From: a virus
Length of the DNA stretch: 31,208 bases
Reading direction: 5' to 3' (one strand)
Virus record (IMG/VR): IMGVR_UViG_3300049733_000107
Span: 1 to 31,208 of that record
The notes under the pieces are model-generated. The model was not told the origin of the DNA, did not search any database, and was given only the letters and a program-made list of their open reading frames with translations. How positions within the stretch are numbered: position 1 is the stretch's first letter; each line of letters opens with the position of its first letter. Below, in pieces: positions 2,611-17,416 of this stretch. Position numbers and translations under genes: made by a program.

Positions 2611-4482
2611 ATGTGGCGCGCCGCCTCGGTCCTCGAGCTGAAATCGTTCGATGACGAACAGCGCATCATCGAAGGGATCGCCACGACGCCGACGCGGGAC
2701 CACGCCGGCCATCACGTCGATCCGCTCGGCGCGGAATTCCGCCTGCCGCTGCCGCTGCTCTGGCAACACGATCAGAAACAACCGATCGGGGAAGTGATCG
2801 CGGCGTCGGTCACCGACGCCGGGATTGCCATCCGCGCGAAACTCGCCCGGATTGACGAACCGGGACGACTGCGCGATCGGCTCGAGGAGGCCTGGCAGTC
2901 CATCAAGGCCGGGATTGTCCGCGGCCTGTCGATCGGGTTCCTGCCGATTGATGCGACACCGATCAAGACCGCGAGCGGCTGGGACCTGAAGATCCGGAAA
3001 TGGCACTGGGGCGAATTGTCGGCGGTGACAATTCCCCAGAATGCCGAGACGACGATTACCGTCGTGAAAGCGGCCGCGATGGGCCATCACTCGCCCGGCG
3101 TTTCGGGCGCACGCAAGGACGTCCCGATGACCATCACGGAACAAGTCACGCAGTGGAGCACGACCCGGGCGCCGAAAGCGGCGCGCCTGGCGGAGCTGAT
3201 GAGCAAGTCCGCCGACAAGGGCGAGACGCTGAACGACGCGGAGGCGCAGGAATTCGACGGCCTCGAGCTCGAGATCAAGAGCATTGACGCGCAGATCACG
3301 CGCCTCCGCGCGGCCGAAGCGCTGCAAGCGGCGCCGACGCCGATCACGCCGGTAACGTCGATGGCGCAGGCGAGTGCGCAACGCGCCGGGACGCCGGTAA
3401 TCACGGTGAAAGCGACCGTCCCGCCGGGGACTGCGTTCGTGCGCTACACGTGCGCGATGCTCGCCTGCAAGGGCAACATGTTCGAGGCGAGCGAATACGC
3501 GGCGCGGCGCTGGGCCGATTCGACGCCCGAAGTCGCGCTGCAGCTCAAGGCGGCCGTCGCGCCGGGCACCGTGACCGATGCCACGTGGGCCGGGCCGCTC
3601 GTCAATCCGTCGATCGCCGCGGACTTCATCGAACTGTTGCGGCCGGCGACGATCCTCGGCAAAATCCCGGGGCTCCGCAACGTCCCGTTCAACACGAAAG
3701 TGCCGTCCCAGACGGCCGGCGGCACGTATGGATGGGTGGGCGAGGCGAAGCCGAAGCCGGTGACCAAGCTCGCCTTCAGCGCGGAAACGCTCGGCATCAC
3801 GAAGGCCGCCGGGATCATCATCCTGACGGAGGAGCTCGTCCGCCTGTCGAATCCCTCCGCGGAAGCCCTGGCGCGGAACGACATGATTGCCGGGATCGCG
3901 CGGTTCCTGGATTCGCAGTTCATCGATCCGGCGATCGCGGCCGTGACCGGCGTCAATCCCGCCTCGATCACCAATGGCGCGCCGACGGCGGCCGCCACGA
4001 CGAATCCGCTGGCGGACGTGATGACGCTGCTCAATTACTTCGCCACGAACAACGTCCCGATCGACGGCGTCACGCTGATCATGTCGCAAGCGAACGCGCT
4101 GGCGCTGTCGTTCAAGAACAACAGCGACGGCAGCCCGGTGTTTCCCGGCGTCGGCGTCAACGGCGGATCGTTCAAAGGGATCAACATCGTCACCAGCCAG
4201 GCGGCCGGGACGAACGTGATCGGCGTGCAGCCGTCCTTGATCCTCTACGCGGACGATGGCGGCGTGACGATCGACATGTCGCGGGAAGCGTCGGTGCAGA
4301 TGGATTCGGCGCCGGCGAGTCCACCCGATGCGACGACCGTGCTCGTGTCGCTGTGGCAGAACAACCTGGTCGGCCTCCGCGCGGAACGGTTCGTCAATTG
4401 GAAGCGCGTCGGACCCTCGGTCATGTATCTGACGGCGGCGGCCTATCCGGCGCCGGCGGAACTGCCACCGGTCACGCCGTAA
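2611..4482 (+). CDS. Fused prohead protease and HK97-type major capsid protein
   Basis: One 623-residue reading frame joins two proteins that most HK97-like phages encode separately. Residues 1 to about 160 are an S78-type prohead protease, with candidate catalytic His53 (LLWQHDQ) and Ser107 (GLSIGF). Residues 173 to about 240 form a charged, coiled-coil delta (scaffold) segment. From about 270 the HK97-fold capsid protein follows, recognisable by GPLVNPSIAADFIELLRP, GWVGEAKPKPVTKLAF and ILTEELVRLS. The protease would mature the head by removing the delta segment. An in-frame ATG at 3127 with AAGGA seven bases upstream could also give a separate 451-residue capsid precursor. No stop or frameshift separates the parts. 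Confidence 0.9.
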   Translation: MWRAASVLELKSFDDEQRIIEGIATTPTRDHAGHHVDPLGAEFRLPLPLLWQHDQKQPIGEVIAASVTDAGIAIRAKLARIDEPGRLRDRLEEAWQSIKAGIVRGLSIGFLPIDATPIKTASGWDLKIRKWHWGELSAVTIPQNAETTITVVKAAAMGHHSPGVSGARKDVPMTITEQVTQWSTTRAPKAARLAELMSKSADKGETLNDAEAQEFDGLELEIKSIDAQITRLRAAEALQAAPTPITPVTSMAQASAQRAGTPVITVKATVPPGTAFVRYTCAMLACKGNMFEASEYAARRWADSTPEVALQLKAAVAPGTVTDATWAGPLVNPSIAADFIELLRPATILGKIPGLRNVPFNTKVPSQTAGGTYGWVGEAKPKPVTKLAFSAETLGITKAAGIIILTEELVRLSNPSAEALARNDMIAGIARFLDSQFIDPAIAAVTGVNPASITNGAPTAAATTNPLADVMTLLNYFATNNVPIDGVTLIMSQANALALSFKNNSDGSPVFPGVGVNGGSFKGINIVTSQAAGTNVIGVQPSLILYADDGGVTIDMSREASVQMDSAPASPPDATTVLVSLWQNNLVGLRAERFVNWKRVGPSVMYLTAAAYPAPAELPPVTP

Positions 4483-4487
4483 CGGCC

Positions 4488-5870
4488 GTGCAGGTGTTCG
4501 GCTGGACGATCACGCGGACCAAAGCCGCCCCGACGCTGGCGCCCATCGTGCGTGCCCGCGGCGGCGGCGGCTGGTGGCCGCTGATCATCCGCGAACCGTC
4601 CACGGGCGCGTGGCAGCGGAACGAGGAGATCCGGCCGGAGCTCGCGTTGGCCTACGCGCCCGTCTTTGCCTGTACCACGCTGATCGCCTCCGACATCGGC
4701 AAACTGCGCCTGCGCCTGGTGCAGCAGGACGAGGATGGCATCTGGCACGAAACGACGAATCCCGCCTGGTCGCCGGTCCTGCGGAAACCAAATCACTATC
4801 AAACGACGCAGAAGTTTCTCGAACAGTGGATCACGTCGAAGCTGATTCACGGCAACGCCTACGCGCTGAAACAGCGGGACGAGCGCGGCGTCGTCCGCGC
4901 GCTCTATCTGCTGGATCCGACGCGCGTGACGCCGCTGGTGGCGCCGGATGGCGCCGTGTTCTATCGCCTCGATCGGGATGATCTGTCCGGCGTGACGGAG
5001 GGCGATCCGCGGCCGGCCGTGCCGGCGAGCGAGATCATTCATGACTTGATGGTGGCGCTCTTTCATCCGCTCTGCGGCGTGTCCCCGATCTTTGCGTGCG
5101 GCCTGGCCGCGAGTCAGGGCCTGGCGATTCAACGGACGTCCAGTTCGTTTTTCAGCAACGGATCCACACCCGGCGGGATCGTGCTCGTCCCGGGCGATAT
5201 CAGTATCGAGACGGCGCAGCAGCTCAAGACGTACTGGGACACGAACTACAGCGGCGTCAACGTCGGCAAGGTCGCCGTCCTCACGAACGGGATGACCTAT
5301 CAGGCGACGAGCGTGAACGCGACGGACGCGCAATTGATCGAACAGTTGAAATGGTCCGGCGAAACCGTCTGCACGTGCTACCACGTCCCGCCGTCGATGG
5401 TGAACATTGGGCCGCTGCCGCCGTACGCGAACAGTGAACCGCTCGTCCAGCAGTACTACTCGCAATGCTTGCAGGCGCTGATCGTCGCGCTCGAGACGAG
5501 TCTCGACGAAGGCCTCGAGCTTCCGCGGCCGTACGGGACGGAGCTCGATATCAGCGATCTCATCTGGATGGACACGGACACGCGCACGAAAGCCGCGGGC
5601 GATGCGATCGGCGCCGGCGCCATGTCGCCGGATGAGGCGCGCAAGACCTACTTCGGCCTCGGGCCGGTCCCGGGCGGTGACACGCCGTACATGCAGCAGC
5701 AGTACTTCAGCCTGGCGGCGCTGGCGGAACGGGACGCGGAGCAACCCTTCGCCAAACCGGCGCCGGCCGCGCCGCCGACGCCGGCGACGCCTGAGGACGA
5801 CGACGAGGATCTCAACGTGGCCGCCTTCGCCGTGACGTTGTATCGGAAGAGCCTGGAGTTCTATGCCTGA
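4488..5870 (+). CDS. Phage portal protein, HK97 family
   Basis: Forms the twelve-fold ring at the head vertex through which DNA passes. The 460-residue length is usual. Recognisable stretches are AYAPVFACTTLIASDIGKL near the N-terminus, LIHGNAYALKQRDERGVVRALYLLDP, GVSPIFACG, SSFFSNGSTPGGIV, and the late CTCYHVPPSMVNIG and MSPDEARKTYFGLGPVPGGD segments. Start is the GTG at 4488, five bases after the capsid stop; the frame is open further upstream only because it shadows the capsid gene. In most HK97-like phages the order is portal, protease, capsid; here the portal comes after the capsid. Confidence 0.93.
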   Translation: MQVFGWTITRTKAAPTLAPIVRARGGGGWWPLIIREPSTGAWQRNEEIRPELALAYAPVFACTTLIASDIGKLRLRLVQQDEDGIWHETTNPAWSPVLRKPNHYQTTQKFLEQWITSKLIHGNAYALKQRDERGVVRALYLLDPTRVTPLVAPDGAVFYRLDRDDLSGVTEGDPRPAVPASEIIHDLMVALFHPLCGVSPIFACGLAASQGLAIQRTSSSFFSNGSTPGGIVLVPGDISIETAQQLKTYWDTNYSGVNVGKVAVLTNGMTYQATSVNATDAQLIEQLKWSGETVCTCYHVPPSMVNIGPLPPYANSEPLVQQYYSQCLQALIVALETSLDEGLELPRPYGTELDISDLIWMDTDTRTKAAGDAIGAGAMSPDEARKTYFGLGPVPGGDTPYMQQQYFSLAALAERDAEQPFAKPAPAAPPTPATPEDDDEDLNVAAFAVTLYRKSLEFYA

Positions 5871-6366
5871 TTACGATGCGCTGGCCGACATCGTGATCAT
5901 GACGATCAAGCGCGCACAGGCGCCGCTGCTCGATCGGATTACCCTGCTCGAGGCCAACCTTGCCCTGGTCGAGTCGTACGCTTCCGTGGGTGAGCTCGCC
6001 GGCCTCCGCGAACGGATCGCCAGGCTCGAGACACGCGCCCCCGTCCCTGGGCCGCCCGGCGCCGACGGCAAGGACGGCGCCGACGGCCTGGGGATTGACG
6101 ATCTCCGGCTCGAGCAACGCGACGAACGCACGATGGCGCTCGCCTACGTCCGCGGCAGTGTCGTCAAAGACCTGGGCGTCGTGACCTGGCCGATCGCGCT
6201 CTATCGCGGCGTCCATGTCGAAGGGAAGGCTTACGACGCCGGCGACACGGTCACCTGGGCAGGCTCGGTCTGGTACTGTAAAACGACGACGACGGCCAGA
6301 CCCGGGGAAGGGCATCCGGCGTGGATGCTGATGGTCAAACGCGGCCGCGACGGGAAAGGCGCGTAA
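5863..6366 (+). CDS. Coiled-coil and collagen-like structural protein
   Basis: A 167-residue protein overlapping the portal gene by 8 bases. Residues 10-58 are predicted helical with heptad spacing (LLDRITLLEANLALVESYASVGELAGLRERIARLE). A short collagen-like run of Gly-X-Y triplets follows (GPPGADGKDGADG). The C-terminal part has YRGVHVEGKAYDAGDTVTWAGSVWYCK, which resembles the small carbohydrate-binding modules (CBM5/12-like) seen in phage fibres and decoration proteins. A trimeric head decoration or fibre-like protein is the likely role; its position next to the portal favours the virion. No exact family is recognised. Confidence 0.7.
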   Translation: MPDYDALADIVIMTIKRAQAPLLDRITLLEANLALVESYASVGELAGLRERIARLETRAPVPGPPGADGKDGADGLGIDDLRLEQRDERTMALAYVRGSVVKDLGVVTWPIALYRGVHVEGKAYDAGDTVTWAGSVWYCKTTTTARPGEGHPAWMLMVKRGRDGKGA

Positions 6367-9623: not shown

Positions 9624-10031
9624 ATGGCGCGGAGGCATGGCAGTACGGGGCAAGTGAAGATGGATCCCGCGGGCGGATCGACGGTCGTGACCGTGGCCGA
9701 TCTCAACGCGTGGACGCTCGACCAGGCCCGGGATCAGGTCGATGTGACCGCGTTCGGGGATACCAACAAGCAATACGTCCTCGGCCTGCCCGACGTGAAG
9801 GGGACCTACGGCGGGTGGTGGTCGTCGGGCTCGAGTCCGGCGCTCTTTGCCGTGGCGCAAGGGAATACGCCGGCCACGCTCAACCTGATCCCGTCCACGG
9901 TCGATCCGACGTTCTTTTTCGAGGGGCTGGCGTACCTGGACGCGTCGATCGATGTGGCCTCGGATGGCGCCGTCTCGATCAGCGGCAACCTGGTCGCGGC
10001 CGGTCCGTGGACGCTCGAGGGGCCGCCGTAA
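9624..10031 (+). CDS. Major tail tube protein
   Basis: 135 residues with a strong ggagggg ribosome site. The N-terminal RHGSTGQVKMDP, then VADLNAWTLDQARDQVDVTAFGDTNKQYVLGLPDVKGTYGGWW, is the typical tail-tube pattern (strand, DVT.fgD...y..Gl.d..g...g). It would polymerise into the inner tail tube around the tape measure. The next structural genes (chaperones, tape measure) support this. Short for the family but complete. Confidence 0.82.
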   Translation: MARRHGSTGQVKMDPAGGSTVVTVADLNAWTLDQARDQVDVTAFGDTNKQYVLGLPDVKGTYGGWWSSGSSPALFAVAQGNTPATLNLIPSTVDPTFFFEGLAYLDASIDVASDGAVSISGNLVAAGPWTLEGPP

Positions 10032-10347: not shown

Positions 10348-10749
10348 ATGCGGGGACGGTTCATCCGGCCGGAGACGGCCCGGCTCGAGCTCACGGGCGG
10401 CGATTTCCTGATCGTCAAGCGCCGCTTGACGGCGGGCGAACAACGGGAAGCGTACGCGCGCCTGTATGTGGCCGGCGCCGATGGCGTGTTTCACGTCAAC
10501 CCGATCGAGCTCGGGCGGACGACGATGATCGCCTACCTCGTTGACTGGAGCTTCACGGACGACGACGGGATCCCGATCGTGATCCGCGGCCTCAGCGCCG
10601 GCGAGCTCGGCGCGGTCCTGGACGGCCTCGATCCGGAATCCTTCGCGGAGATCCGCCTGGCCATCGAGGCGCATGAAGCGGCGATAACGCGGGAACGGGA
10701 GGCGGAAAAAAAAACCCGCGACGTCGAGACGCGCTCGAGTGTGATTTGA
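10348..10749 (+). CDS. Tail assembly chaperone, zero-frame product (gpG-like)
   Basis: 133 residues with ribosome site ggagg. Located between tail tube and tape measure genes, where lambda-like phages encode G and GT. The core (DFLIVKRRLTAGEQREAYARLYV, LVDWSFTDDDGIPIVIRGLSAGELGAVLDGLDPESFAEI) matches tail chaperones. Near its end is a run of nine A (10706-10714), read GAA AAA AAA ACC, which contains an in-phase A_AAA_AAA slippery heptamer. Ribosomes that stay in frame stop at 10749; those that slip make the longer product listed separately. Confidence 0.82.
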   Translation: MRGRFIRPETARLELTGGDFLIVKRRLTAGEQREAYARLYVAGADGVFHVNPIELGRTTMIAYLVDWSFTDDDGIPIVIRGLSAGELGAVLDGLDPESFAEIRLAIEAHEAAITREREAEKKTRDVETRSSVI

Positions 10750-10850
10750 GGATCGCCATCCGGACGGGCTGGACGCTCGAAGCCGTCCGCGCGCTCACGG
10801 AGGACGAGTACGCCATGCTGGTCCACCTCCTCACGACCGCCGACAGGTAA
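10348..10850 (+). CDS. Tail assembly chaperone, -1 frameshift product (gpGT-like)
   Basis: A -1 slip at A_AAA_AAA (10707-10713) leads into a frame that stays open to TAA at 10848-10850 and adds 45 residues, giving about 167 in all. The added part, with ECDLRIAIRTGWTLEAVRALTEDEYAMLVHLLT, resembles the T domain of other phages (a helix, GWT.E.v..L..DE....). That part has no start codon of its own with a ribosome site and would otherwise go untranslated. It stops six bases before the tape measure ATG. In lambda the T part recruits tape measure. Frameshifting is inferred from sequence. Confidence 0.78.
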
Positions 10851-10856
10851 TCCGCC

Positions 10857-12491
10857 ATGCCGCTAGCCGGAACCCTTCAAGCCGATTTCTCGCCGTTCTT
10901 CGAGGCCGTCCAGAAGGCGGAGATCGAGCTCAAGTCCTTTGAGACGGGCGCCGTCAAAGTCGAAAGCGCGCTCTCGCGCATGGTGGACAGTTTCAGCGGC
11001 CGCCGGTTGATCCAGGACGCCACGCTGATGATCGAAGCCGTCGAGCGGATCGGCGGCGTCACGAAACTCACCGACGAAGATATGGCGCGGCTGACGCGGA
11101 CCGTGGAAGGCGCGAAAGCCAAGATGGTGGCGATGGGGGTCGAGGTTCCGGCGGCCTTTGACAACGTCATCACGTCCGCGAAACAGACCGAGACCGCCTT
11201 CAAGGCCATGGACGACGCGCGGCCGCTGGTGAAGGTGGGCGATCACGCGACCGGCGCGATGGGGAAACTCGGGAAGTTGTCCGGCGAGGTCGCGAAAGTC
11301 GATCGGATTCTCGGCCTCGCCGGCGTGTCCGCATCGCAATACGGCGCCGCCCTGGGCGAGCTCGAAGTCTTGGCGAGTGTCGCGGCCGGCGGGATGACGG
11401 TGCTGACGGGCGGCCTCCTGGCCGCCGGCGCGGCGCTCCTGGTGGTCAATACGGACTGGGAGAAACTCGATCGCACGATCGCGGACTCGACGGCGAAGCT
11501 GTTCGGCTGGGGCGATGCGGCGAAAGAGGAAGCCGGCGCCGTCCAGGACTTGCTGGATCGCGCCTCCAAGATCGCCGGCCATTCGATCACGACGATGGCG
11601 GAGGCGCAACGCGTGATGGAAGACCACGCGAACCGCTTCCGCAAAGCGGCAGAGGATGCCTACAAGCGGCAGCTCGAGATCTGGAAGGAACTGGACGCCG
11701 CGGCGAAGGCGCAGGCGGACACGATTCGGACCGCCTTCGATCAGATGTTCGGGACACCGATCCTGGACAAGATGGAGACGACGCAAGCGGCGCTGTCGCG
11801 GTTCAAGACGCTCGGGCTCGAACCGATCAAAGCCGTGTGGCCGGAAATCGTGAGCCAGGCCAAAGAGGCGATGCAAGTGCTCGAGGATCGCGGGCTGAAC
11901 GCGACCGACCGGTTCCGCACGCTGGCCGCGATCGTCAAAGAGTTTTCGGACAAGCTCGCCCAGATCCCGATCGCGTCCACACGGATCCCGGGCGCCGCCG
12001 GCCTGATTACGCCCACCGTCGGCGGCGGCATGGGCTCCCAGGATCAGACCGCGATCGTCAACGCGACGGAGCTCGCGAACTGGTTGGAGCGCGCGACGAA
12101 AGAACAGCAGGAGCTCGACGCGGAAGTCCGGAAATTCTACGAGCTCCAGGGGTCCGTGTTTGACGAGCTGACCGACGGCGCCGCCGGCGCGACGGCCGCG
12201 GTCGATCGCCTCGGCAACGGGATCGCGCGGACGCGCGCGGAGCTCGAGGCGCTGGCGCGGACCATGACGCAGGCGCAATGGCTCAGCGGCAAGCCGGCCG
12301 GGATGAGTGTCACGGAATATCTTGAGACGTCGGGCCCGGCGTTGCAGGCGCTGCGCGCCGCCGGCCGTGGGCCGATGGGGGCGCCCACGGTAATCGTCAA
12401 CGCGCAGAACTCGTTCTTCGATACGCCGACGGGGCAACAGCGGCTGGCCGGCAAAGTGTCCGCCGCGCTGCTGTCGAGTAGCGGACGGTAA
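10857..12491 (+). CDS. Tail tape measure protein
   Basis: 544 residues, rich in Ala, Glu and Lys and mainly helical. The start, LAGTLQADFSPFFEAVQKAEIELKSFETGAVKVESAL, is the common tape measure opening (LQADFS.F..A...AE..L). A hydrophobic stretch at about 160-200 (ASVAAGGMTVLTGGLLAAGAALLVV) is the membrane-like segment seen in many tape measures and thought to help DNA entry. The length suggests a short tail, of the order of 80 nm by the usual 0.15 nm per residue rule. It directly follows the chaperone frameshift product. Confidence 0.85.
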   Translation: MPLAGTLQADFSPFFEAVQKAEIELKSFETGAVKVESALSRMVDSFSGRRLIQDATLMIEAVERIGGVTKLTDEDMARLTRTVEGAKAKMVAMGVEVPAAFDNVITSAKQTETAFKAMDDARPLVKVGDHATGAMGKLGKLSGEVAKVDRILGLAGVSASQYGAALGELEVLASVAAGGMTVLTGGLLAAGAALLVVNTDWEKLDRTIADSTAKLFGWGDAAKEEAGAVQDLLDRASKIAGHSITTMAEAQRVMEDHANRFRKAAEDAYKRQLEIWKELDAAAKAQADTIRTAFDQMFGTPILDKMETTQAALSRFKTLGLEPIKAVWPEIVSQAKEAMQVLEDRGLNATDRFRTLAAIVKEFSDKLAQIPIASTRIPGAAGLITPTVGGGMGSQDQTAIVNATELANWLERATKEQQELDAEVRKFYELQGSVFDELTDGAAGATAAVDRLGNGIARTRAELEALARTMTQAQWLSGKPAGMSVTEYLETSGPALQALRAAGRGPMGAPTVIVNAQNSFFDTPTGQQRLAGKVSAALLSSSGR

Positions 12492-12494
12492 CGC

Positions 12495-15400
12495 ATGCCG
12501 ATCAGCGGATCCGATCCGGCGCTGATGGTGGCGCGCCTGGGCGTGATGCGCCTCGGCGCGACGCGGCTCGCCTACTATCCGCCCGCGTTCGCGTTCTCGA
12601 TCGCCGGCGTCCCGATCACGCAACCCGTGATCCGCGTGGCCGAGCTCCAGATTACGGATTACTTGGACGGGCAACCGAATCTGGCCACGTTCCGCATGGA
12701 CACGATCACGCCGCTCCCAGGCCAGGAGATTCGGATCGGCCTCGGCGGTCTCGGCGCGTCCGAAACCTACTTCGCCGGCAACATCCAGACGGTCAATCAG
12801 GTCTACGAAGCGGACGTGCGCCAACATGTCGCCTGGGACGTGACGGCGATCTCGTACGAATGGCTGATGAACCGGCGCCGCGTGACCAAGCGCTATCTCA
12901 ACGAACGCGCCGGCGCCATCGCAATCGATGTGATCGGCAATTTCACCTCCGGGTTTACGTCGCACCATGTGGATCCGAACCTGGCCGTCATTCCGGAATT
13001 CACCTTTACGCATGCGTTCGTGACCGACGCGCTCGACCAGCTGGCGCGCGCCGCCGGCGGCTATTGGTTCGTTGATACCCAACGGGACCTGCACTTTTTT
13101 ACGGAGGCGGCCGATCAGGTCCATCCGATCACGGACGCGGACGATCACTCGGCAGCGGACCTGGCGAAGGCGGAGGATCTCGAACCGGTGCGGACGCGCG
13201 TCCTGGTGGAAGGCGGCGGATCGGACACGACGATCCCGATCGATCCCGGCGCCACGACGATCCCGCTCGAGGACGTCGCGCTGTTCGCGGCCGGCGGCGG
13301 GACGGCCGTGCAGGATACGCAACGCTTCACGTATACCGGGACCATTGCGGCGGACGTCGCGGCGAGTAACGTCGGTGGCGCGCCAGGGCCGGCGGCGCCC
13401 ACGGCCGCATTGACGACCGGGATCGGGGACGTGATCGGGACCGTCCGCTACCGCGTGAGTCTCCGCCGCGGCTCGAGTGAAACCGTGCCTGGCGATCCCT
13501 CGGGTCCGGTGACGGGGATCGCTGTGACGCCGCCGACGGCGCCGACGGCGCTCCTGGCGCTGACGGGCGGCCCGCTCGCCGGCGAGTACAGCTACGGCTG
13601 CACGTTCGTGACGTCCCGCGGCGAAACGACGATGAGCGGCCTGTCCGTGATTACGACGACCGCCGTGGCCGCGCCAGGCACCATCAGTGTGGCGCCGCAC
13701 GCCGGCGCCGTCGGGCGCCTGGTGGGGACGTTCCTGTATGCGCTGACGTTCGTCACGGCGCGCGGCGAAACGGCGCCGGGGGCGGACTCCGCCGCCGTGA
13801 CGGCCACGGCCCACGCGGCGCCGCCGGCGGTGACGATTGCGGCCACGGGATCAATCGGGCCGCTGGTGGGGACCTACCGGTACAAGATTACGGGCGTGAC
13901 GGCGCTCGGCGAAACGCTCCCCAGTCTCGAGGCGTCGCGGACCGCGGCGGCCGTGGCGGCGCCCACCTATTCCGTCCTGACACTGGCGGAAGTCTCGACC
14001 ACGATCGGCCGGCTGATCGGCGCGTACACGTACCGCGTGTCGTTCGTCACGGTCTACGGCGAAACGCTCACCGGGAATGCAACGACGATCACGCCGGCGG
14101 CGCACACGGGCCCGGGCGGCTGGTCCTGGACGGCCAGCGGCACCGGCGTGGGCCCCATCGCGGGCGTCTCCTACGCCTACAAGGTGTCGTTTGTCTCGGA
14201 GCTCGGGGAAAGCCTCAGTACGGCGTCCACGTCTGCGACCATTACCGGCGTGACGGCGACGGCGCCGAGCGTCACGGTGAATAGCGGGACGGGGGAGAAC
14301 GGCTACGCCGTGACGTGGGTCCATCCGGAATGGGGCGAATCCGAGATCAGCGGCCGCACAGTCATCAGTGGCACGAACAATACCGTCTTTGTGACGAACC
14401 TCCCGGCCGGCTGTGGCTGGAACGTCTACGCGACGGGCACCGTCCCGGCCGGCAACGGGGCGACGGCCGTGCTGTACCGGGTGGCCGAGAGGGCCGTCGG
14501 CGCCGCGAGCTTCACGCACACAACCCAGACGGGACCACAAGCCAGCGTCCGTGCCACGCTCGGCCGCGCGGTCGTGGTGTCCGGGATCCCGGCGGGCCCG
14601 ACCGGGACGACGGCGCGCCGCGTCTACCGGACGCGCGCGAATGCGCCCGCGTCGTTTCTCCTGGTCGGACAGATTGACGGGAACGCCGCCGGCGCCTCGT
14701 TCACGGATACAGTTCCGGATGCGGCGCTCACCACCTTCGCGCCGACGTCCAACCTGAACGGCAAACAGATCACGATCACGATCCCGACCGGGCCGGCGAC
14801 GACGATCGCGCGGCGCCTCTACCGCTCGCGCGTCGGCAACAGCGGCCTGTACCTCCACACGCAGATTGACGGGAACGGATCGGCCACGGTGACGGACAAT
14901 CAGCCGGACGAAGCGTTGACCGTTCTGCCGCCGACCGTCGCCACGGCTGGCGGCGAAGAACAGCAAGTCAACCTCCTGGCCGGACCGACGGGAACGATCG
15001 CGCGGCGCCTCTATCGGACGACCGCCGGCGGATCCGAATTTCGACTGCTGGCGGAGATCCCGAATAACACGGCGCCGACCTACCTCGACGCGAAGGCCGA
15101 TAGTGAACTCGGCGCGACGACCGAACCGGTGACGAGTACCGCCGGCGGCCAGGCGATCGACGTGATCGCGATCCCGGTGGCGCCGGCCGGCGTGACGGCG
15201 CGGCGCCTCTATCGCCGGCGTTCGGGGACGCCCACCTATCGCCTGGTGGCGCCGATCGAGGACGGGGCGAGTACCTATCTCGACGATCGGCCGGATGATG
15301 CGTTAGGCGAACCGCCGCCGATCGCCAGTACCGCCGGCGGCCAGTCCGTCCAGGTGACGCTGCCGATCGGCCCCACGGGGACGACGGCGCGCCGGTTCTA

Positions 15401-16358
15401 TCGGTCCCGGAGCGGCGGCGGCGCGCTCGGCTACGCCGGCGCGATCAGCGGCAATGTCACGCCGGCGATTGTGGACGATCGGCCGGATGATGCGCTCGGC
15501 GAACCGCCGCCGCTGGTGAACACGGCCGGCGGATCCATGGTGGCGCTGTCCAATCTCCCGATCGGCCCGACCGGGACCACGGCGCGCCGCATCTATCGCA
15601 CGAAGGGCGGCGGCGCGGACTACTTCTACCTGCGGCAGATTACCGATAACACGACGCTCAGCTACACGGACGATGCGTCCGACGACGATCTCCACGACCT
15701 GGCACCGACGGCCAGCACGATCGGCGCGCTGGCCGGTGACACGTCGCTCCGCCTCGAGTCCACGACGGGCTTTCCCGCGGGCGGCTGGGTCCGCGCGGAT
15801 TCGCAAGTCCTCCGCTATACCGGCGTGTCCGGCGCGTTTCTGACGGGGATGCCCGCGAGCGGCCTCGGCGCCATCACGGCGGCGATCGCGGCCGGCTCCG
15901 CAGTCCTCGTCGAACCGCACTTGATCGGGGTCGTCGGCGTGTCCGTGTCGATGCCGGCCGGGACGACGATCCATCTGCTCGTGACGCGGGACGACGCCGC
16001 GGCGCAAGCGGTGATGGCGGCGCGCGTCGGCGGCGACGGCATCACCGAAGAGTACGTGACGGATGATCGCTTGTCCGTGGCGGAGGCGATCGAACGCGGC
16101 GATGCAAAACTCCTGGAGCTCAAGGATCCCGTCGTGACGATCCGCTATCGGACGCACGATCGGACAACGCGGAGCGGCCGCGAAGTCACGATCAATGTCG
16201 GCGCGCCGAACAATATCGTCGGGACGTACAAGATCCAGCAAGTGACGTACACGGAGTTTGATCCGTTGATGATCCGCTTTCCGCTCTGTACCGTGACGGC
16301 GAGCTCGCGGCGCGCGTCCTTTGATGCGATCGTCCGGCTGTTGAAGGGATACGTCTGA
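12495..16358 (+). CDS. Baseplate hub-like tail protein with two inserted tandem repeat arrays
   Basis: 1287 residues. The N-terminal part (to about 290) looks like a tail hub (gp27/gene D-like): PVIRVAELQITDYLDGQPNLATFRMD, YFAGNIQTVNQVYE, and later AAGGYWFVDTQRDLHFF. The C-terminal 200 residues return to hub-like sequence (SVAEAIERGDAKLLELKDPVVTIRYRTHD, VGTYKIQQVTYTEFDPL). Between them lie two repeat families: about seven copies of a 48-50 residue unit with YxY.v.FVT..GET (about 318-610), then six copies of a 62-65 residue unit with GPTGTTARR.YR (about 700-1080). These look like fibronectin- or immunoglobulin-type beta modules. They would project from the hub and may bind the cell surface. 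Confidence 0.75.
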   Translation: MPISGSDPALMVARLGVMRLGATRLAYYPPAFAFSIAGVPITQPVIRVAELQITDYLDGQPNLATFRMDTITPLPGQEIRIGLGGLGASETYFAGNIQTVNQVYEADVRQHVAWDVTAISYEWLMNRRRVTKRYLNERAGAIAIDVIGNFTSGFTSHHVDPNLAVIPEFTFTHAFVTDALDQLARAAGGYWFVDTQRDLHFFTEAADQVHPITDADDHSAADLAKAEDLEPVRTRVLVEGGGSDTTIPIDPGATTIPLEDVALFAAGGGTAVQDTQRFTYTGTIAADVAASNVGGAPGPAAPTAALTTGIGDVIGTVRYRVSLRRGSSETVPGDPSGPVTGIAVTPPTAPTALLALTGGPLAGEYSYGCTFVTSRGETTMSGLSVITTTAVAAPGTISVAPHAGAVGRLVGTFLYALTFVTARGETAPGADSAAVTATAHAAPPAVTIAATGSIGPLVGTYRYKITGVTALGETLPSLEASRTAAAVAAPTYSVLTLAEVSTTIGRLIGAYTYRVSFVTVYGETLTGNATTITPAAHTGPGGWSWTASGTGVGPIAGVSYAYKVSFVSELGESLSTASTSATITGVTATAPSVTVNSGTGENGYAVTWVHPEWGESEISGRTVISGTNNTVFVTNLPAGCGWNVYATGTVPAGNGATAVLYRVAERAVGAASFTHTTQTGPQASVRATLGRAVVVSGIPAGPTGTTARRVYRTRANAPASFLLVGQIDGNAAGASFTDTVPDAALTTFAPTSNLNGKQITITIPTGPATTIARRLYRSRVGNSGLYLHTQIDGNGSATVTDNQPDEALTVLPPTVATAGGEEQQVNLLAGPTGTIARRLYRTTAGGSEFRLLAEIPNNTAPTYLDAKADSELGATTEPVTSTAGGQAIDVIAIPVAPAGVTARRLYRRRSGTPTYRLVAPIEDGASTYLDDRPDDALGEPPPIASTAGGQSVQVTLPIGPTGTTARRFYRSRSGGGALGYAGAISGNVTPAIVDDRPDDALGEPPPLVNTAGGSMVALSNLPIGPTGTTARRIYRTKGGGADYFYLRQITDNTTLSYTDDASDDDLHDLAPTASTIGALAGDTSLRLESTTGFPAGGWVRADSQVLRYTGVSGAFLTGMPASGLGAITAAIAAGSAVLVEPHLIGVVGVSVSMPAGTTIHLLVTRDDAAAQAVMAARVGGDGITEEYVTDDRLSVAEAIERGDAKLLELKDPVVTIRYRTHDRTTRSGREVTINVGAPNNIVGTYKIQQVTYTEFDPLMIRFPLCTVTASSRRASFDAIVRLLKGYV

Positions 16359-17416
16359 TGCCCACCCAGATTTCCCGCGTCTGGTACACCACGCTGATCG
16401 ATGACGACGGGTCCGGCACGACGGGGACGCCGTGGGCGAAGGCCAGCGTCGATGCCATGTATGGCGACATCAACGCGATCTTCGCGGGCAGCGTCACGTT
16501 CGGCGGCACCGTCAACAGCGAAGTCATCGGCACCCACCGATTCTCCGGGGCGAGTCCAGGTGGAAACACCCTCCGTATTTTCAACACGCAAGCGGCCTCG
16601 ACGAATTGGGCCGCCGTACAAATCGGCAACGACGTCGCCGAGGATCGGAGTGGCCTCTATTGTTTCTCGACCCAGTACGCGACATCAGGGGCACAAAAAG
16701 CCGACGGCGCGTTGCTCGCGGCCAACGGGTCTGGCGGACTCGTCCTGTCGGCGACGTCTGGCGCCGCGACGGTGGAACTGTGGACGAATGGATCGCGGCG
16801 GCAACAATGGAATCCCGATGGCTCGATCGAATACACGGCGGCCGCGCCGTCCGCGTGGACGTTCAACGGGATCGATGCGGCTGGCGGGCAGCTCCGGATC
16901 CAGAAGAACGGCACGAACCTGCTCAACCTTGGGCCCGGATCGATCATCGGCTTCGGCGGCGCCAACGACGCCAACGTCTACGCTGGCGCCGGCGCGCTGA
17001 TGCTCGAGTCCGCGGTCAGCGTCCGCTCGACGACGGTCTATGCGGCGACCACGAGCGATCCCGCGAACGTCAACATTCAATCCAACTATTCGCTCACGCG
17101 ATCCACGTCCTCCCTCCGCTACAAACGGGACGTGCAGCCCCTCGAGGCGTGGCGCTGGCTGCTCGCGCTCAGCCCGATCACGTTCCGGGATCGCGCGCGG
17201 CCTGGCCGGCGCTACGGCGGTCTGGCGGCGGAAGATGTCGCGGCGCACGGCCCGCGCGGTGAGGACGGGCGGCCGCAATACGCGGGCCTGGACGCCGACG
17301 GCCGGCCGGATGACGTGGCCTATACCCAGCTGGTCGCGCCGCTCGTGGCGGCCGTCCAGGAGCTCCATGCTCGTCTTGCCAGTCTCGAACGAAAGGACGA
17401 TCCCATATGCCTCTGA
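16358..17416 (+). CDS. Tail fibre with C-terminal S74 intramolecular chaperone
   Basis: 352 residues, start overlapping the hub stop by one base. Residues 1-240 have the Gly/Ala/Ser/Asn-rich beta pattern of a fibre (short strands, VTFGGTVNSEVIGTHRFSG, LRIFNTQ). Residues 251-352 are a peptidase S74 chaperone: STSSLRYKRDVQPLE, then LLALSPITFR, YGGLAAEDVA, and a final helix LVAPLVAAVQELHARLASLE. The Ser-Lys dyad is most likely Ser251 and Lys256, matching the S-x4-K spacing of the family; cleavage before Ser251 would release the chaperone after trimer folding. A receptor-binding role is likely. Confidence 0.88.
   Translation: MPTQISRVWYTTLIDDDGSGTTGTPWAKASVDAMYGDINAIFAGSVTFGGTVNSEVIGTHRFSGASPGGNTLRIFNTQAASTNWAAVQIGNDVAEDRSGLYCFSTQYATSGAQKADGALLAANGSGGLVLSATSGAATVELWTNGSRRQQWNPDGSIEYTAAAPSAWTFNGIDAAGGQLRIQKNGTNLLNLGPGSIIGFGGANDANVYAGAGALMLESAVSVRSTTVYAATTSDPANVNIQSNYSLTRSTSSLRYKRDVQPLEAWRWLLALSPITFRDRARPGRRYGGLAAEDVAAHGPRGEDGRPQYAGLDADGRPDDVAYTQLVAPLVAAVQELHARLASLERKDDPICL

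Follow-up and report, generated by a model that had tools for sequence, protein, structure and literature searches.

A probable lambda G/GT-type -1 frameshift on A_AAA_AAA in the tail assembly chaperone gene of a family of uncultivated phages

A putative tail assembly chaperone gene that is followed by a short open stretch in the -1 frame raises the question of whether the two are expressed as one fusion protein and, if so, whether the change of frame occurs during translation or already during transcription. We examined such a locus in the 31,208-base record of an uncultivated virus (referred to here as the window, that is, the whole stretch of DNA analysed) and in its relatives. Taken together, the data make it very probable that we are dealing with a lambda G/GT-type tail assembly chaperone gene, in which a -1 frameshift on the slippery heptamer A_AAA_AAA adds a T domain.

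The G/T locus and its neighbours

All features of the locus lie on the plus strand. The frame encoding the short product, G (10348 to 10749, 133 aa; identified from the ORF, its relatives, an AlphaFold model and BFVD matches), contains a run of nine A (10706 to 10714) in which the first-pass annotation had seen an in-phase slippery heptamer, and the frame-0 codons across the run, GAA AAA AAA ACC, bear this out, placing A_AAA_AAA at 10707 to 10713. After a backward slip of one base the junction peptide reads E-K-K-N-P, and the -1 frame (T, 10713 to 10850) runs on for 45 codons, NPRRRDALECDLRIAIRTGWTLEAVRALTEDEYAMLVHLLTTADR, closing with the TAA at 10848-10850. As had been annotated, six bases separate this stop from the next ATG (10857). 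The nearest upstream stop in the -1 frame lies just 5' of 10674 and the G stop begins at 10747, so that both frames are open from 10674 to 10746, a shift window of about 24 codons ahead of the G stop. The accompanying claim that the downstream part lacks a good start codon is nearly true and needs qualifying on two counts, namely a -1-frame TTG (10746-10748) that overlaps the TGA of G (10747-10749) and an ATG located 11 codons from the end of T.

In the mechanism that we propose, most ribosomes would end G at the TGA at 10747-10749, and a minority would slip back by one base on A_AAA_AAA, where the tRNA-Lys in the P and A sites would re-pair with AAA. The slipped ribosomes would then add the 45-residue T domain, giving a GT fusion of 167 aa, at an efficiency that we infer to leave GT the rarer product. 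By analogy with lambda, many copies of G may coat the tape measure protein and the few copies of GT may recruit the major tail protein.

The gene order agrees with this assignment, the G and T frames being situated between the genes for the major tail protein and the tape measure protein, with one 90-aa ORF before G. The major tail protein gene (9624 to 10031) is recognized by phrog_10528 (major tail protein, E 5e-10). The 544-aa ORF that starts six bases past the T stop (10857 to 12491) has no family match of its own and is assigned as the tape measure gene from its position and from the corresponding ORFs of the relatives; in 69 of the 71 relatives tested, a long ORF begins at a distance of at most 60 nt from the T stop, and six of the ten ORFs scanned from this position match tape-measure PHROGs at E ≤ 0.01.

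Structure prediction bears on the identity of G. The AlphaFold model of G has a mean pLDDT of 90.5 (76-row alignment). Its BFVD matches include two Bacillus phage proteins that are predicted tail assembly chaperones, with E values of 4e-6 and 6.7e-6 and a query-based TM of 0.62-0.65; an uncharacterised phage protein (E 1.3e-9) ranks above both. The top PDB row for the model (VIA) was the HK97 tail assembly chaperone 2OB9, with a modest Z of 4.8; Foldseek returned nothing from the PDB at E ≤ 0.001, and the G profile found no match among the sequences of solved structures. By sequence, neither G nor T of the window matched a named family at E ≤ 0.001, G had no match in Pfam or PHROG, and tblastn searches against phages with the tape measure protein and with G of two relatives (L110 and L053) gave no match, the best one for G of the window being only an E of 0.4 at 28.7% identity (Bacillus phage 276BB001). 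Among 15 relatives, however, three have a G matching the tail assembly chaperone family phrog_344 (best E 0.00028), and 11 match phrog_9046, a family of no assigned function. On the BFVD matches, with 2OB9 and phrog_344 in a supporting role, the predicted fold of G is that of a tail assembly chaperone. For the T domain, no known T was matched significantly by sequence. Weak matches were obtained in two of the 15 members to phrog_1442 (E 0.022) and in one to phrog_9001 (E 0.055), both families being tail assembly chaperones.

Other parts of the window were annotated alongside. Two overlapping ORFs, 4482-5870 and 5863-6366, match the portal profile phrog_2271 over positions 23-416 and 769-858 of 859, respectively, and share the overlap ATGCCTGA; the second is probably a separate gene for the C-terminal part of the portal that is fused in other phages. 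The ORF at 2611-4482 matches families of both the head maturation protease (phrog_617, E 5e-127) and the major head protein (phrog_80, E 2e-29) and, by these matches, is a predicted fused protease-capsid gene. Past the tape measure gene, a 1287-aa ORF (12495-16358) matches phrog_511 (internal virion protein), followed by a 352-aa ORF (16358-17416) matching tail fibre families, and six ORFs scanned in the right-hand part of the window had no PHROG match.

Conservation of the heptamer and entry into the -1 frame

Relatives were collected along two independent lines, starting from the G part or from the T part. The G-part search with profile A1 found 284 relatives, of which the best 80 were fetched, and further searches contributed the best 80 of 240 with the G part, the best 80 of 142 with the T part and all 68 of another search with the T part. 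Duplicates in the three locus sets were dropped on the basis of 180, 150 or 110 identical nt. The G-part queries gave 123 non-redundant loci, or 122 once L149, whose contig ends before T, had been set aside; L073 and L122 were counted, though their contigs stop after no more than 10 and 17 codons of T, respectively. Two scans of a genome collection found no relatives there, and the family is a sizeable one of uncultivated, GC-rich soil phages.

Among the matches listed, all 122 G-query loci have a T domain in the -1 frame and an in-phase heptamer, which is A_AAA_AAA in 112, A_AAA_AAC in eight, A_AAA_AAG in one and C_CCT_TTT in one. A T domain retained in relatives devoid of a slippery site would have spoken against frameshifting. 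The T-part search, which ignored G (many of its contigs are also in the G-part set), showed the opposite, since among the matches listed every one of 123 non-redundant loci carries an in-phase A_AAA_AA(A/C/G) behind a G-like frame of at least 70 codons. The union comprises 195 non-redundant junctions including the window, and among the matches listed the heptamer is in phase in 195/195 and of the A type in 194 (167 A_AAA_AAA, 23 A_AAA_AAC, four A_AAA_AAG and one C_CCT_TTT), no junction being without a slippery heptamer. As a background, A_AAA_AAN occurs in phase only four times in 43,241 other codons, taken from these genes and their neighbours in 78 representatives.

These counts bear on the idea that the heptamer is no more than a chance lysine pair in the lysine-rich linker of a decayed or mis-sequenced gene. 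The linker does carry many charges (EREAEKK), and pairs of lysines are often seen here; yet the lysine codons upstream in G are divided between 142 AAA and 202 AAG, and the heptamer is nevertheless kept in 195/195. A sequencing error was considered with the window's own contig in mind. The nine-A run recurs in two other contigs (3300049732_000011 and 3300045932_000044), which match the window at 100% identity along 4.2-7.4 kb, and is therefore not the error of a single assembly, although the samples are perhaps not independent. Heptamer conservation and the identical contigs together lead us to reject chance or error, to which we assign next to no probability, a reading that also conflicts with the -1 frame evolving as coding sequence (see below). 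As a separate observation, these two contigs are near-clonal to the window, yet the other fetched relatives are less than 60% identical to it in G, so that the collection holds no close cousins.

The point at which coding enters the -1 frame can be seen from the substitution pattern. Counted by frame-0 codon position over 32 independent pairs of relatives, where frame-0 position 2 corresponds to the third position of frame -1, the substitutions 5' of the heptamer (150/130/341) favour the third position of frame 0. From the heptamer up to the G stop it is the third position of frame -1 that takes most of them (48/142/87), and past the G stop this preference is stronger still (37/133/39). The -1 frame thus evolves as coding sequence, and the switch at the heptamer indicates that selection sees this frame from there on, ahead of the G stop. 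This is the pattern expected of slippage; a restart at the stop would not fit it.

Such a restart would make T a separate small protein, produced when ribosomes that have terminated G reinitiate at the TTGA of 10746-10749, without any fusion. The overlap of the TTG with the G stop in the window would provide for it, and in 51 of 122 relatives, too, a start codon of the -1 frame overlaps the stop of G. However, an NTGA with N other than C is found at 51 of the 67 TGA stops, and about three in four would be expected by chance, so that the overlap is best regarded as incidental. The position of the G stop moreover varies between 25 and 157 nt past the start of the heptamer, the -1-frame periodicity is already present before that stop, and a universal heptamer would be without reason under stop-restart. 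Initiation within the -1 frame, the other observation that would have told against the frameshift, therefore finds no support in these data, and we consider restart at the TTG very unlikely.

Ribosomal and transcriptional slippage

A fusion of G and T could also be obtained if RNA polymerase added one A (or dropped two) in the nine-A run, so that some mRNAs encode GT in a single frame and ribosomes read them normally. Genes of this kind are marked by mRNA that is heterogeneous in the A run and by a run length of about nine. Nine-A runs make RNA polymerase slip in bacteria, as reported in a passage of PMC5009743, and among the matches listed exactly nine A are present in 123 of the 195 junctions and eight in 44. 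The product would be the identical fusion peptide, E-K-K-N-P; mass spectrometry across the junction would consequently prove the fusion and not its mechanism. The remaining junctions listed, on the other hand, have a run of seven A (16), a run of six (11) or no A run (one), the short runs being mostly A_AAA_AAC, and T is still in the -1 frame in all of these, including the C_CCT_TTT junction. In a quick tree of 130 representatives, for which support was not inspected, there are at least 16 changes of run-length class and at least 19 of heptamer type, and the heptamer is never lost through the changes of run length. The amino acids encoded on either side account for the extra A: the heptamer is preceded by E or Q (GAA/CAA) and mostly followed by N (AAC/AAT).

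T thus stays in the -1 frame even in members with a short run or with C_CCT_TTT, which leaves the ribosome as what the whole family has in common, and the A6-A7 and C_CCT_TTT lineages argue against RNA-polymerase slippage as the general mechanism. As the explanation of GT in place of ribosomal frameshifting it has, in our estimate, a small probability. As a contributor in A8-A9 members, the window included, it deserves some weight. A tentative and rather doubtful extension would be that A8-A9 lineages such as the window use both ribosomal and RNA-polymerase slippage, whereas in their relatives with A6-A7 or C_CCT_TTT only the ribosome slips; the gene family would then drift from one mode of recoding to the other with no change in the protein made. 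Along the same tentative line, the rarity of A_AAA_AAG (4/195 among the matches listed) would fit hosts with a separate tRNA-Lys for AAG. Our preferred reading remains that the ribosome would do most of the slipping.

The C_CCT_TTT junction comes from L094 and L097, which have the same sequence and were fetched again as L101 and L102. They are without an A run, and in L094 the heptamer is in phase at 2378-2384, about three codons past the place of the relatives' K-K pair. Non-A heptamers occur elsewhere 38 times in 43,241 codons (42 in total minus four of the A type), from which the chance of finding one in the relevant 20-codon stretch of L094 is about 2%. All-pyrimidine heptamers with UUY are shift-prone under the E. 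coli rules given in an excerpt of PMC4066793, and C_CCT_TTT may well be functional as a slippery site in this lineage, in which a switch of slippery motif is possible.

Stimulated -1 frameshifts of the dnaX/IS type have an SD-like element 5' of the heptamer and a stem-loop or pseudoknot 3' of it. In the present family, no conserved downstream structure was found across 77 representatives, the mean fold z at +7 being -0.34 ± 0.13 relative to shuffled sequence, with control offsets between -0.45 and +0.40 and the window between -1.5 and +0.1 (loci with too little flank were left out of these profiles). A downstream hairpin as a shared stimulator is thus not supported, the fold z being hardly below that of shuffled sequence. 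A Shine-Dalgarno-like word is present within 18 nt 5' of the heptamer in 69 of 122 loci, as against 0-40 of 122 at other offsets; it is not universal, and the excess is partly due to the codons used there. In the window, a GGGAGG ends four bases before the heptamer, and since the best spacing in dnaX is about ten, no stimulator is claimed. A_AAA_AAA shifts less readily in E. coli than A_AAA_AAG does (as stated in part of PMC5009743), which could suit a low ratio of GT to G, and low-efficiency motifs can serve elements that require only small amounts of fusion protein, according to an excerpt of PMC4066793.

An ORF list alone would miss the 167-aa GT protein, both in the window phage and in its family. 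The family also offers a good natural data set on heptamer turnover (A_AAA_AAA, A_AAA_AAC, A_AAA_AAG and C_CCT_TTT), the frame change never being lost in the loci seen, and would be suited to asking when RNA-polymerase slippage contributes.

Comparison with known frameshift systems

Frameshifting on poly-A heptamers is familiar from transposons of the IS1 and IS3 families, where A_AAA_AAG and A_AAA_AAA make up 72% of heptamers and A_AAA_AAC is among the next commonest, as given in an excerpt of PMC4066793. The phage family described here shares these three heptamers, but the shift in the transposons yields a transposase fusion and the proteins are unrelated.

The HK97 chaperone 2OB9 aligns with the G model over 92 residues (rmsd 4.7, Z 4.8), with only 5% sequence identity. 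Genes 27 and 28 of Bacillus phage 276BB001, the best and insignificant sequence match of window G, carry the annotation of a joined frameshift chaperone and are flanked by the major tail protein and tape measure genes; there, too, an in-phase A_AAA_AAG lies near the end of G, T is in frame -1, and the joined product ends five bases before the tape-measure CDS. On the other hand, its -1 part has no match to the T profile of the window family, its heptamer ends in G, and it belongs to another host group.

In lambda-type G/GT systems, G is made far in excess of GT, both bind the tape measure protein, T binds the major tail protein, and both are absent from the virion; the lambda heptamer is G_GGA_AAG. 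The window differs from lambda in its heptamer, A_AAA_AAA, and in its T, which has only 45 codons and no significant similarity to a named T. It shares with lambda the placing of G/T behind the major tail protein gene and ahead of the tape measure gene, as well as a -1 shift near the end of G on an X_XXY_YYZ heptamer that leads into a C-terminal T domain, in so far as these are set out in the relevant part of PMC5009743. The lambda G/GT arrangement proposed in the first-pass annotation is therefore supported by frame, phase, conservation, the switch of coding to the -1 frame at the heptamer, gene order and chaperone-like fold. The mechanism as such is ordinary and the arrangement already well known; here its poly-A heptamer is very uniformly conserved.
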